Assembly (NCBI GenBank): GCA_026988035.1
Contig: JALSLY010000053.1
Span: forward strand, 1 to 48,885
DNA length: 48,885 bases
Direction of reading: 5' to 3'
DNA from: Thermotogae bacterium
Lineage (GTDB): Bacteria > Thermotogota > Thermotogae > Mesoaciditogales > Mesoaciditogaceae
The position numbers and the translations under genes were made by a program. The notes beneath the pieces are model-generated. The model saw nothing but the letters and a program-made list of their open reading frames with translations. It made no database searches and had not been told where the DNA came from. Positions 44,294-48,885 of this stretch are shown piece by piece. The stretch's first letter is position 1, and each line of letters starts with the position of its first letter.

Positions 44294-45355
44294 TCAAATT
44301 TCAACGCGTTTTTCGTTGAGAAAGAAGAGCATTTCGGATTCCTTAAGTGAAAGATTCACATCATCTCCCTCTGAAACTCTCATCGTGTTTGGTACAAGCG
44401 ATTTGATCTTTATTCTTTCAGAATTTAGCGAAATTTCAACGGATACCAAAATGTTTGCTCCCATGGGCTCTGTTAATATAACCTTTCCTGAAATAGGTCC
44501 TTTTTCAATAGTGATATTCTCTGGTCTTATTCCAATTTCAACTTTTCCTTTGTGTAAGAGTTTTTCGAGAGCGATGAGCTTTTGAGAAGAGAGCACTTTA
44601 CTCATGGATTTAGCATTTTTAGCTTCAAATATGTTTATCTGGGGGGTACCTACAAAAAGAGCGACGAACTTATTAATAGGGCGCTTGTATATCTCCTCTG
44701 GAGCTCCGATCTGTTGGATTAACCCATAATTCATAACGATCACTCTATCTGACATCGCTATAGCTTCTTCCTGATCGTGAGTTACATAAATTGTTGTGCC
44801 ATGAACATGGTGGAAGAGTGATTTAAGCTCTCCCCTCATTCTATGTCTCAGTATGGCATCTAAATTAGCAAGAGGTTCATCAAGCAAGAAAAGATTTGGT
44901 TCTCTTATAAGTGCGCGTCCAAGTGCTACACGTTGACGTTGGCCACCGCTTAGTTCCCTTGGTTTTCTATCAAGCAAGTTAGGTATTCCAAGCATTTCTG
45001 CAATGCTGGTAACTCTTTGTTTGATCTTAGCCTTTGAGACTTTTCTTATTTCTAACGGAATTGCCATGTTTTTGTAAACACTCATGTGGGGATAAAGTGC
45101 GTAGCTTTGAAAGACCATGGCTATGTCTCTTTCGGAAGGAGAAAGAGCATTCACAATTTTGCCATTTATCGATATTTCACCCTCATCTGCTTTTTCTAAT
45201 CCAGCTATCAAGCGAAGAGTGGTTGTTTTACCGCTTCCCGAAGGTCCTAACAGACTCACAAATTCGCCGTCATCAACGAAAAAATTTGCGTTGTTAACTG
45301 CCATGACTTTTTCTCCAAAGCGCTTTACAACTTTTTTTAATTCTAACTTGTGCAT
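44294..45355 (-). CDS. Sugar ABC transporter ATPase (MalK/UgpC/MsmX type)
   Basis: ATPase of a carbohydrate importer, 353 residues. Walker A GPSGSGKTTT (37-46), Q loop MVFQSYALYPHM, signature LSGGQRQRVALGRAL, Walker B LFLLDEPLANLD and H loop YVTHDQEEA are intact. The C-terminal OB/TOBE domain (about 235-350, IGIRPENI) is typical of MalK-like subunits. It is last in its operon, 21 bases after the second permease. It could also serve other sugar permeases, as MsmX does. Confidence 0.93.
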   Translation of the reverse strand: MHKLELKKVVKRFGEKVMAVNNANFFVDDGEFVSLLGPSGSGKTTTLRLIAGLEKADEGEISINGKIVNALSPSERDIAMVFQSYALYPHMSVYKNMAIPLEIRKVSKAKIKQRVTSIAEMLGIPNLLDRKPRELSGGQRQRVALGRALIREPNLFLLDEPLANLDAILRHRMRGELKSLFHHVHGTTIYVTHDQEEAIAMSDRVIVMNYGLIQQIGAPEEIYKRPINKFVALFVGTPQINIFEAKNAKSMSKVLSSQKLIALEKLLHKGKVEIGIRPENITIEKGPISGKVILTEPMGANILVSVEISLNSERIKIKSLVPNTMRVSEGDDVNLSLKESEMLFFLNEKRVEI

Positions 45356-45376
45356 CTTTCCATCCCTTCCTTTGTT

Positions 45377-46198
45377 TTATCCTTTGACTGCGCCAGCTGT
45401 AAGACCACTGATGATCTTCTCTTGAGCAACGAATATTATTACGACAAGCGGTACGGTTACAATCAAAGCACCTGCTATGATCTCACCCCATGGGTACTGA
45501 TATGAGAATCTACCTGATATCATGGATATTCCCACAGTAATTGTTCTCATGTTCTCTTTTGTCATAAAAGTCAGTGCCAGTATGAATTCATTCCAACATG
45601 CGATAAAATCAAGTATTGCAACTGTTGAAGCAGCGGGAATTCCAAGAGGAAGAATTATTTTATAAAATGCTTGAAACCTTGACATTCCATCTACTCTTGC
45701 GGCTTCATAAAGTTCACCAGGTATTTGCCCAAAATAAGTAGAAAGGACCCAAACGGTTAAAGGTATGCTCATGGTGGTATAAGGAAGAATCAAACTGAGA
45801 TAATTATTTAGAAGGTGAAATTTTGCAAACATTTCATAAAGGGGGAATATCATAGTAGCTGCTGGGAAAAAACCGAGAATGAGCAAGAGATTCAATAAGG
45901 TACTGGATCCTTTGAATTTTATCTTGGCAATGGCAAAGGCGGCCATTGACCCTATGAGTAACGCAATTGCCGTCGCGCTTAAAGAAACTATCAAACTGTT
46001 GACTATATAAGAACCTAACGATATATCTTTAAAAACACCTATGTAGTTCGAAAACGTGAAAGCCACTGGATAAAGTATTGGTGGCGAAGAGTAAGATACA
46101 CTTGTAGGCTCGAAGGAGTTCAAGAGCAAAAAGTATATCGGAAAAAGGCAGAAAAAGATCATCAAAATTACACCAACATAAAGAAAGAATTTTTTCAT
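45377..46198 (-). CDS. Sugar ABC transporter permease (MalG type)
   Basis: Inner-membrane permease with six helices (273 residues). The EAA loop that docks on the ATPase reads EAARVDGMSRFQAFYKIILPLGIPA (near 180). ATG at 46198 overlaps the first permease stop (ATGA); GGAGG stands 11 bases upstream. Belongs to the CUT1 family for di- and oligosaccharides. Confidence 0.92.
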   Translation of the reverse strand: MKKFFLYVGVILMIFFCLFPIYFLLLNSFEPTSVSYSSPPILYPVAFTFSNYIGVFKDISLGSYIVNSLIVSLSATAIALLIGSMAAFAIAKIKFKGSSTLLNLLLILGFFPAATMIFPLYEMFAKFHLLNNYLSLILPYTTMSIPLTVWVLSTYFGQIPGELYEAARVDGMSRFQAFYKIILPLGIPAASTVAILDFIACWNEFILALTFMTKENMRTITVGISMISGRFSYQYPWGEIIAGALIVTVPLVVIIFVAQEKIISGLTAGAVKG

Positions 46199-47091
46199 TG
46201 AGTTGCATACCTCCTTCCAACATAACTTCTGGTTATCCAAATAACCACGACGAGTCCTATTATGTAAATGGACGTTATTACAGCTGTAGCAGCTCCAGCT
46301 CTCACATCAAGCCAGTTGAAAGTTTGTTGATATATAAAAGGAGAAAGTGCCATGGTCGCGTTTCCTGGCCCACCGTTTGTGAGAACCCATATAAGATCAA
46401 AAACGCCAAATGCCTGTAAGAATCTGAATGTAAGGGTTACAGTTATGGCTGGAAGCATTAAAGGGAATGTAAGCTTTCTCAGCTTGAAGAACCAACCGGC
46501 ACCGTCTACTTCCATTGCTTCGTATAAATCTCTTGGTATAGCCTGTAAACCAGCAAGCAGTAAAAGAGCACAAAAAGGTACGGTTTTCCAGATATCTGCC
46601 ATTATTATTGAAGCAAAGGCCATTTTTGGCATCGATAAGAAATAAGGTGGTGATTGAGTGATATGTAGCCAATAAAGTATCCATGGTATTGGACCATAAG
46701 AATGTTGAAGCATGAATTTCCACCCTGTAGCCATAATAGCTGTGGGCAATGCCCAAGGGATCAAGAATATGGTTCTAACGGCTTTCCTTCCATGAAATTC
46801 TTGATTGAGCAATAATGCAAAGATAAAACCGATTACCATTTCGAATGATACAGATATCAACGAAAACTTCACAGTGATCCATGTTGACTGCCAAAATGAT
46901 GAGCCAGTGAGGATCGCGTAAAAATTGTTAAGTGTGAAGTTGTTATGTATATTTGTGAAGGAAAACCATACGTTTTTAATCAAGGGATATATTTGAAAAA
47001 TTGTGAAAAAGACAACTATTGGGGAAACGAATCCTATCAAGGCAAGTAAATAACCCTTCTCATGTTTGGGATTAACACTCTGCATTGCCAA
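46195..47091 (-). CDS. Sugar ABC transporter permease (MalF type)
   Basis: Inner-membrane permease with six helices (298 residues), no large periplasmic insert. The EAA loop is EAMEVDGAGWFFKLRKLTFPLMLPA (around 190-215), and LTNGGPGNATMALSPFIYQQTF is the usual CUT1 motif. TTG at 47091 with GGGAGGTG 8 bases upstream is favoured; an ATG two codons later is possible. Confidence 0.92.
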   Translation of the reverse strand: MAMQSVNPKHEKGYLLALIGFVSPIVVFFTIFQIYPLIKNVWFSFTNIHNNFTLNNFYAILTGSSFWQSTWITVKFSLISVSFEMVIGFIFALLLNQEFHGRKAVRTIFLIPWALPTAIMATGWKFMLQHSYGPIPWILYWLHITQSPPYFLSMPKMAFASIIMADIWKTVPFCALLLLAGLQAIPRDLYEAMEVDGAGWFFKLRKLTFPLMLPAITVTLTFRFLQAFGVFDLIWVLTNGGPGNATMALSPFIYQQTFNWLDVRAGAATAVITSIYIIGLVVVIWITRSYVGRRYATQ

Positions 47092-47164
47092 AATTTACAC
47101 CTCCCAAATTTGCGTAAGCGGCAAGCGAGCTTCCCCACTTGCCGCTGATCTCCCCTTGTTAGTT

Positions 47165-48439
47165 TTAATGAGTTGCCCAATACTCTTTAACAGCTTCTCT
47201 TGCGGCTTTCGCCATTGCTTTGTTAGCTTGTTCTGGTGTCATTTGTTGAGTCATAGCCATTGTCAAATATTTAGACATGATATCAGACAGTTTGGGCCAC
47301 AGAGGGGTAGCTGGTCTCCATCTTGTGTGCTCGAGTATGGTTCTAAGATCCTTGAAAAATGGATTCCATTTGAGCACTTCTGGATCGTAGTATATATCTC
47401 GTCTTGAAACATCCACACCAGTCATTTTTACCATCAATTTCTCAATTTTGTAACTATTCATAAACGTTGCGAATTTAATGGCTGCTGGAATTTTGCTTTT
47501 GTCTATGAACGCCGAAATGGCGACTCCCCATCCTCCTTGTGTGGCATATGGATGTTCTCCAGGAGCACAAACCTCGGTTGTCACTCCAACTTTGCCTTTA
47601 ACCTTTGAGTTTTTGTCGGTTTGAGACAACACCCATACGTATGGCCAGTTTCTCAAGAAAACTGCATGCCCGCTTTCAAACATATGTCTCGATTCTTCTT
47701 CCATAAATGTAAGCACATCAGGTGGTGTTATTTTGTATTTGTGAATCGTGTCCACAAGATACTGAGTTGCTTGAATCGCTTGAGGAGAGTCAATACCGAC
47801 TTTTCTGGTGACTGGATCGTAGTAGTAGCCGCCATTTCCCCAAAGCCACTCGAGATAGAAGCAGTCGAGGCCTTCATATTGCGCTCCTTGATAGATAAAT
47901 CCCCAGAGTCCCTTGGACGGATTCTGCAATTTCTGAGCTTCTTCAAAAAGCTCTTTGAAAGTTTTTGGCGGTTTCATTCCGGCTTTTTCCAGCAGATCTT
48001 TTCGATAATATATGAGACCTGCGTCGCTCATAACAGGAACTCTGTATATGTGTCCCTTCCAGATACTTCCATCAACAGTTGCTCTAAAATTTTGGGCATA
48101 AAGTTTATTGACATCCACATATTTATCAATTGGGAGCAACCATCCATTCGCTGCAAGTGGTGGAATCCATATGATATCTGCCCAAACAAGGTCGTATGGA
48201 GAAGTATGAGCCATGGAAGCAGTCATGAACATCTGTTGACGAGCATTTGTGGAGTGCGGTCCTTGAATAAGGTTTACAATGATGTCTGGATTCTCTTGTT
48301 CGAAGAGTTCAATGGCTTTGGCATAGAAATGCTGTGTGTCGGGGCCTGTTAAGAACGTAATAGAAGTTTTTGCTGCCATGGATATTCCTGAAAAGAGAAT
48401 CATCGCAGCGATCACAAGAAACACCAGTTTCTTCTTCAC
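47165..48439 (-). CDS. Sugar ABC transporter substrate-binding protein
   Basis: Periplasmic solute-binding protein of the CUT1 (family 1) type, 424 residues. It has a signal peptide (MKKKLVFLVIAAMILFSG, cleavage likely at AMA/SMAA) and no lipobox Cys, so it is probably soluble in the periplasm. KAIELFEQENPDIIVNL, DLVWADIIWIPPLAANGWLLPID and GGWGVAIS are family features; the ThuE/trehalose-maltose group is the nearest resemblance but substrate is uncertain. GTG at 48439 follows AAGGAGG. First gene of the transporter operon. Confidence 0.92.
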   Translation of the reverse strand: MKKKLVFLVIAAMILFSGISMAAKTSITFLTGPDTQHFYAKAIELFEQENPDIIVNLIQGPHSTNARQQMFMTASMAHTSPYDLVWADIIWIPPLAANGWLLPIDKYVDVNKLYAQNFRATVDGSIWKGHIYRVPVMSDAGLIYYRKDLLEKAGMKPPKTFKELFEEAQKLQNPSKGLWGFIYQGAQYEGLDCFYLEWLWGNGGYYYDPVTRKVGIDSPQAIQATQYLVDTIHKYKITPPDVLTFMEEESRHMFESGHAVFLRNWPYVWVLSQTDKNSKVKGKVGVTTEVCAPGEHPYATQGGWGVAISAFIDKSKIPAAIKFATFMNSYKIEKLMVKMTGVDVSRRDIYYDPEVLKWNPFFKDLRTILEHTRWRPATPLWPKLSDIMSKYLTMAMTQQMTPEQANKAMAKAAREAVKEYWATH

Positions 48440-48462
48440 TTCAAAACGCCTCCTTACATTTT

Positions 48463-48515
48463 ATTATAGTTTAGCTCCCTCTTTGAGGGAACTAACCATA
48501 GCTTGCCAAGGTTAG
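48463..48515 (-). promoter_or_regulatory. Promoter and operator-like repeats upstream of the sugar ABC operon
   Basis: A minus-strand TATAAT (48468-48463) lies 23 bases before the GTG. Two inverted repeats follow upstream: TCCCTC-TTT-GAGGGA (48476-48490), covering the spacer and -35 region, and CTAACC/GGTTAG (48492-48497, 48510-48515). Both could bind a sugar-responsive regulator; this is inference. Confidence 0.5.
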
Positions 48516-48618
48516 AAAAATCGCAATATTTTAAGAATGTTTATCATGCTATTTACCCTCAAATTATGCAAGTCGAGTTAACGAGATGAATGTTGAGTAA
48601 AATCAAAGGCATCGGTCA

Positions 48619-48648
48619 TTGAAAAAGGGCATGAAACCCTCGTATAAT
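48619..48648 (+). promoter_or_regulatory. Promoter of the insertion sequence gene
   Basis: TTGAAA (48619-48624), an 18-base spacer and TATAAT (48643-48648). Start expected near 48655, about 28 bases before the ATG. Confidence 0.7.
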
Positions 48649-48688
48649 CGTTGTGAACAAGATCAACGAAAGGAGTGATTTCATGCCC
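48627..48688 (+). repeat. Inverted repeat flanking the promoter and start codon
   Basis: GGGCATGAAA (48627-48636) is the exact reverse complement of TTTCATGCCC (48679-48688), which contains the ATG at 48683. The first copy lies upstream of the -10, so only read-through transcripts carry both. Confidence 0.75.
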
Positions 48689-48885
48689 ACAACAAATATA
48701 CCACAAATCTTGTCTCATATGCTAGACCCTTCTAAATTTTCTAGAAAGGACCAATACACTCGTATCACCTCTTACACACTAGCACTTGGTTTGCCTAAAC
48801 ATGTCACTCAAATTCAATTGTCAAAATATCTTCCCTTTTCTCAATCTTCCATTTCTCGTACCCTTTCAACATCCGCCATTTCAAC
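48683..48885 (+). CDS. Start of a probable transposase gene (cut by window end)
   Basis: 67 codons are visible before the window ends, starting MPTTNIPQILSHMLDPSKFSRKDQY and continuing LSKYLPFSQSSISRTLS. The ATG has AAGGAGTG 7-8 bases upstream and a good promoter. The Gln/Ser/Thr-rich N-terminus with a helix-turn-helix-like LSKYLPFSQSSISRTL stretch, plus promoter architecture and an inverted repeat over the start, suggest an IS transposase. Family not determined, and completeness cannot be judged. Confidence 0.5.
   Translation, partial: MPTTNIPQILSHMLDPSKFSRKDQYTRITSYTLALGLPKHVTQIQLSKYLPFSQSSISRTLSTSAIS

Follow-up and report, generated by a model that had tools for sequence, protein, structure and literature searches.

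An inverted repeat spanning the transposase start of an IS701-like insertion sequence: a probable RNA safety catch against read-through expression

The window analyzed here (48,885 nucleotides, from a Thermotogae bacterium) is the whole of contig C53 of its genome and stops within an insertion sequence (IS). The truncated transposase gene at its right-hand edge belongs to a multicopy IS, whose left end was placed at 48558 because contigs C20, C5 and C56 of the same genome share the sequence from this position onward (94% identity) and differ before it. A single right end, GACTTGCATAATTTGAG, was found on contig C84 of the same genome and matches the left end, CTCAAATTATGCAAGTC. The middle part of the transposase gene and any complete copy of the element were absent from this genome's assembly, as expected for a collapsed repeat. 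Next to the IS, on the minus strand at 44294–48439, lies an ABC transporter operon of the sugar type, encoding an ATPase, two permeases and a solute-binding protein. It is transcribed away from the IS, and its first gene begins approximately 120 bp from the left end of the element. At least two copies are inserted co-directionally inside open reading frames (ORFs), one on contig C20 of the same genome (an ORF of at least 104 codons) and one in genome G063 (a GIY-YIG-like ORF).

Full-length relatives were found in genomes G051 (362 aa, 1.21 kb) and G063, and relatives shared 36–69% amino-acid identity with the transposase over its first 67 residues. A contig search for further relatives returned only two loci in Guaymas Thermotogae metagenome-assembled genomes, both without left ends. 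Several other loci carry parts of related elements. In G063, two copies of the related IS (L033 and L083, at about C1:1434700 and 1431300) lie in or beside repeats, GTTTCCATCCCACTATGGTTCTCGCTCAAC, that look like CRISPR repeats. On contig C77 of the window's own genome (L010, about 350–460, reverse), the left end of the same IS survives in degraded form, its arm (GAGCATAAAAC) decayed, and unrelated sequence follows; this is an internal-deletion relic. A site on contig C22 (L011/L006, about 667–691) shares only the terminal CTCAAATTATGCAAGTTGAGTTAA with the IS and may mark where a related or non-autonomous element ends.

The family placement of the transposase was ambiguous. The best NCBIfam matches of the G051 relative were IS701 models, with scores of 70.6 bits (cut-off 170) and 68.8 bits (cut-off 150), and thus below the curated cut-offs. 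Target duplications were 5 bp in both G051 copies (ATCAT and AATTT) and in two of the three G063 copies (ACTAT and ACAGG), and the third G063 copy seemed to have a 4-bp duplication; the 4 bp of the IS701 family is therefore not the rule in this group, and the duplications are also shorter than the 7–13 bp of the IS4 family. The ends (CTCAAATTATGCAAGTC / CTCAACTTATGCACTT / CCCAAACTATGCAC) do not show the IS701 terminal consensus ---YACT-Y (PMC2266710). The IS4 motif Y-(2)-R-(3)-E-(6)-K was present in full, as HYSKRETVEEYFKQAK in G051 and HYSKRTYIETYFKYAK on contig C84, and the full YREK motif is rare in IS701 (PMC2266710). By the criteria of PMC2266710, the element is thus a clean member of neither the IS701 nor the IS4 family. 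What it shares with the IS701 family (ISBsm1 and relatives), apart from these models, is an inverted repeat at the transposase start, with comparable 12-bp arms in ISBsm1 (GAGACATGAACC/GGTTCATGTCTC).

The features of the left end are listed in Table 1. As originally predicted, and as can be read directly in the sequence, the two arms are perfect 10-bp reverse complements, 42 nt apart, one upstream of the -10 box and the other extending from 4 nt 5′ of the ATG (48683–48685) through codon 2. The pair is omitted by the general repeat search, the minimum length of which is 12. When the 135-nt start region was shuffled 200 times with its dinucleotides preserved, no shuffle gave an equally good stem; with bulges allowed, the stem had p = 0.003, the lowest value that 300 shuffles can give. 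A promoter scan identified TTGAAA-18 bp-TATAAT (11 of 12 matches) as the strongest site in 48440–48760. A GTG start at 48653 was ruled out, as it lies 5′ of the Shine–Dalgarno (SD) sequence and its frame is not kept among relatives, whose leader lengths differ by 1–3 nt. The start region matched no Rfam family (best E 0.98, far under the gathering score).

Table 1. Features of the IS left end and the transposase start in the window.
Feature	Position	Strand	Basis
Left terminal inverted repeat CTCAAATTATGCAAGTC; 48558 is the first base of the element	48558..48574	+	Breakpoint common to own-genome copies on C20, C5 and C56 with differing flanks; matching right end on C84
-35 box TTGAAA	48619..48624	+	Promoter scan; nearly invariant among relatives
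Upstream arm GGGCATGAAA, within the -35/-10 spacer	48627..48636	+	Sequence reading; covariation
-10 box TATAAT, in the loop between the arms	48643..48648	+	Promoter scan; position kept in relatives (TATAAT/TATATT/TAAATT)
Putative transcription start, 7 nt past the -10 box	48655	+	Promoter position only
Shine–Dalgarno sequence AAAGGAG, 7 nt 5′ of the ATG	48669..48675	+	Sequence reading; partly paired in predicted read-through fold
Downstream arm TTTCATGCCC, over start codon and codon 2	48679..48688	+	Sequence reading; covariation
Transposase 5′ part (MPTTNIPQIL...), truncated at contig end	48683..48885	+	Start conserved in relatives; nearest NCBIfam models IS701, below cut-off (scored on full-length relative)

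Since the upstream arm lies inside the promoter spacer and its position is conserved, RNA initiated at this promoter would lack it. Folding predictions for the window sequence agreed with the view that the repeat would hide the start codon in read-through RNA only: the probability that the ATG is unpaired was 0.00–0.01 in read-through RNA at 37–75°C, versus 0.51–0.77 in the element's own RNA when this was taken to start at the putative position 48655. The cost of opening the SD sequence and the ATG was 9.4 kcal/mol in read-through RNA versus 2.3 kcal/mol in own RNA at 37°C, and 7.0 versus 1.2 kcal/mol at 65°C. The corresponding values at 37°C were 16.5 versus 2.5 kcal/mol for G063 and 17.7 versus 3.3 kcal/mol for G021. 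Folding thus predicts that the ATG is hidden in read-through RNA even at 65–75°C and is mostly open in RNA that the element's own promoter would give.

Were the normal transcript to begin at a promoter further upstream, the same hairpin would form in it and act as a constitutive brake on translation. IS200 provides a precedent, since the stem at its ribosome-binding site lies in the 5′ untranslated region of its own tnpA mRNA (PMC12594629). Here, the sole strong promoter inside the element would start transcription past the first arm, and the -35 and -10 boxes, with the arm between them, are kept in relatives, which makes a constitutive brake improbable. It is still harder to credit that the stem halts incoming RNA as a transcription terminator. 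Terminators located upstream of transposase genes have been reported for several IS families (PMC2965389), but the scan that gave the promoter found no terminator-like site, and the sequence after the downstream arm (CACAACAAAT) has no U-run. For lack of such a site, the effect of the hairpin would be on translation.

In other Thermotogota, related elements retain the hairpin. The arm pair was found at the same place in left ends from G004, G007, G021, G035, G051 and G063, and in decayed copies in G001 and G008. Loss of the upstream arm from other copies would have contradicted the original prediction; instead, both arms were present in all intact relatives, and three other copies in the window's own genome, on contigs that end at or before the start codon, carry an upstream arm whose sequence (TGGGCATGAAATC) would extend the pairing. 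Stem letters had changed with pairing kept in G021 (GGCATGGAACCATC/GATGGTTCCATGCC), G063 (GGCATGAAATCATC/GATGATTTCATGCC) and G051 (GGCATGGGAA/TTCCCATGCC); a decayed sister of the G021 copy has the arms GGCATGGAATCATC/GATGATTCC, and in the G004 and G007 copies the stem contains an A-C mismatch. Across relatives, the two sides of the outer stem change together. In an alignment of 20 distinct sequences that was fitted to the structure and whose rows are related, so that counts are not numbers of independent events, double changes occurred in 8 of 14 pairs (23 cells, versus a shuffled mean of 6.5; 0 of 500 shuffles). Sliding the partner by 1–3 columns in this alignment, from which two decayed loci that had lost pairing or the upstream arm (L069 and L093) were excluded, lowered pairing from 87% to 24–52%. 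An unfitted MAFFT alignment of eight sequences pointed in the same direction (4 pairs and 7 cells, versus 2.6; 0 of 500). The compensatory changes anticipated in other copies were thus found in both alignments, and they indicate that pairing has been maintained by selection. The inner GGCATG/CATGCC pairs hardly vary among relatives because the downstream arm is coding (ATGCCCAC, nearly invariant), and they therefore say little for RNA pairing. Judged by the covariation of the outer stem, the hairpin is a real, selected RNA structure.

A search with a model of the arrangement also recovered other ISs with unrelated arm sequences. An IS in G007 has the layout TTGAAA-AGCCGGCAACACCTTTTG-TAAAAT...AGGTGTTGCCGGC-ATG, and an element in G011 (about 25% identity) has ATCGGTGCTCC/GGAGCACCGAT-ATG. 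In IS256-like elements, the arms are GTTCCTGTATCC/GGATACAGGAAC in the window's own genome, G004 and G005, versus GCCCTGTATCC/GGATACAGGGC in G038 and G014, with both sides changed. Such comparisons bear on the view that the palindrome is a DNA site, both halves of which are bound by the transposase or a host repressor that shuts the promoter. The upstream arm does sit in the promoter, and the GGCATG...CATGCC core is invariant. However, the core coincides in part with the conserved first codons (MPTT), which gives its invariance another cause; the outer stem varies in a coordinated way between the two arms, which would be unnecessary for a fixed protein site; and the arms of unrelated ISs differ, their sole common property being complementarity to their own start region. 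We regard a DNA site as unlikely, if slightly less so than a constitutive brake. A separate resemblance concerns a distant IS701-like element in G007 (L082 and L076, contigs C59 and C51), which carries GTCATTGAAAAAAGGCAT upstream of its own promoter; this sequence is close to GGTCATTGAAAAAGGCATG of the present group, though the transposases are only about 25% identical, and may possibly represent a shared transposase-binding or promoter motif.

To gauge how widespread the layout is, transposase starts of IS701-like, IS256-like and IS4-like elements were sampled, including those of 12 plasmid-borne IS256, IS701 and IS4-like elements drawn from the spread of matches blind to structure. A duplex between an upstream arm and the start at p≤0.01 was present in 26 of 37 starts, among which several IS256-like elements are closely related to one another, versus 0 of 48 control ORF starts, which came from one genome and some of which may not be genes. 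Three loci without a sensible transposase start (L055, L100 and L114) were excluded from the later counts. The positives included IS256 of Staphylococcus, IS16, ISEf1, ISBsm1 and ISTeha4; some IS256-like starts (G038b, G060 and G094) had no such pairing. The presence of upstream RNA raised the cost of opening the start by a median of 11.6 kcal/mol in this group, 13.0 in IS701-like elements, 5.8 in IS256-like elements and 0.0 in controls. In plasmid-borne IS256, IS16, ISEf1 and relatives (L160–L165), the arm/start complementarity lies around a -10-like hexamer. The IS256 family thus resembles the present element in having an arm, a -10-like hexamer, a leader and an arm over the SD sequence or start, and differs from it in transposase and arm sequences, which are unrelated. 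These data also bear on the view that the palindrome arose by chance or belongs to an ordinary structured leader: a 10-bp arm is short, but the shuffles (0 of 200 and 0 of 300), the compensatory retention of pairing and the absence of the duplex from all 48 controls leave this explanation very little probability, above that of a terminator alone among the alternatives considered. The literature searched, to which most subscription papers are external, contained no description of a start hairpin in IS701 or IS256 elements. With somewhat better than even odds, start-hiding in read-through RNA would be the usual layout of single-ORF DDE elements (IS701-like, IS256-like and IS4-like, in several phyla), with arms that evolved independently, in or next to the promoter, and a native transcript that always escapes.

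The proposed mechanism has known counterparts. In IS10 (Tn10), Davis, Simons and Kleckner reportedly described in 1985 an inverted repeat whose first arm precedes the native start and whose second lies over the transposase start region, such that only incoming RNA folds shut; in IS50 (Tn5), read-through RNA is said to fold over the transposase start, as described by Krebs and Reznikoff in 1986. The present element resembles the former in its inverted repeat, whose first arm lies upstream of a strong, conserved -10 box, and the latter in its predicted read-through fold. The protection of IS10 from external promoters (Davis 1985) and the use of RNA structure by IS200 (Beuzon 1999) are both cited in PMC2965389. 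IS10 also has an antisense RNA and a Dam-regulated promoter (PMC4265352, PMC8450116) and differs from the present element in its transposase group, and IS50 differs in its transposase subgroup and its target duplications of 8–9 bp (PMC2266710), versus 5 bp here. IS200, which had been named beside them as a model, is alike in that a stem occludes the ribosome-binding site. However, its start stem acts in its own transcript too, so that IS10 and IS50 are the right comparison; in addition, a separate stem of IS200 terminates incoming RNA (PMC3196728), and its transposase is of the HuH rather than a DDE-like type.

As a whole, we consider it very probable, at roughly 0.86, that the inverted repeat serves as an RNA safety catch against read-through expression of the transposase, a reading for which we infer where transcription starts, how the RNA folds in the cell and how translation is affected. 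When the IS lies within a transcribed gene, polymerase coming from the left would copy both arms; the upstream arm would then pair with the RNA around the ATG, and little transposase would be made from the hidden start. RNA from the element's own promoter would begin between the arms, without the upstream arm, and be translated. The original prediction is well supported, with the IS200 comparison corrected. The mechanism itself is already known, and the present analysis contributes a new IS701-like group, evidence from covariation and breadth across families.

Within this IS group, the RNA fold is hard to dispute in view of the covariation. The arrangement would show how an IS can insert into an active gene and yet not be turned on by it, which limits harm to both the host and the element. 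The survey across families gives a searchable signature, consisting of an arm, a -10 box, a leader and a complementary arm over the start, which may serve to ask how general start-hiding control is and how often it arose.
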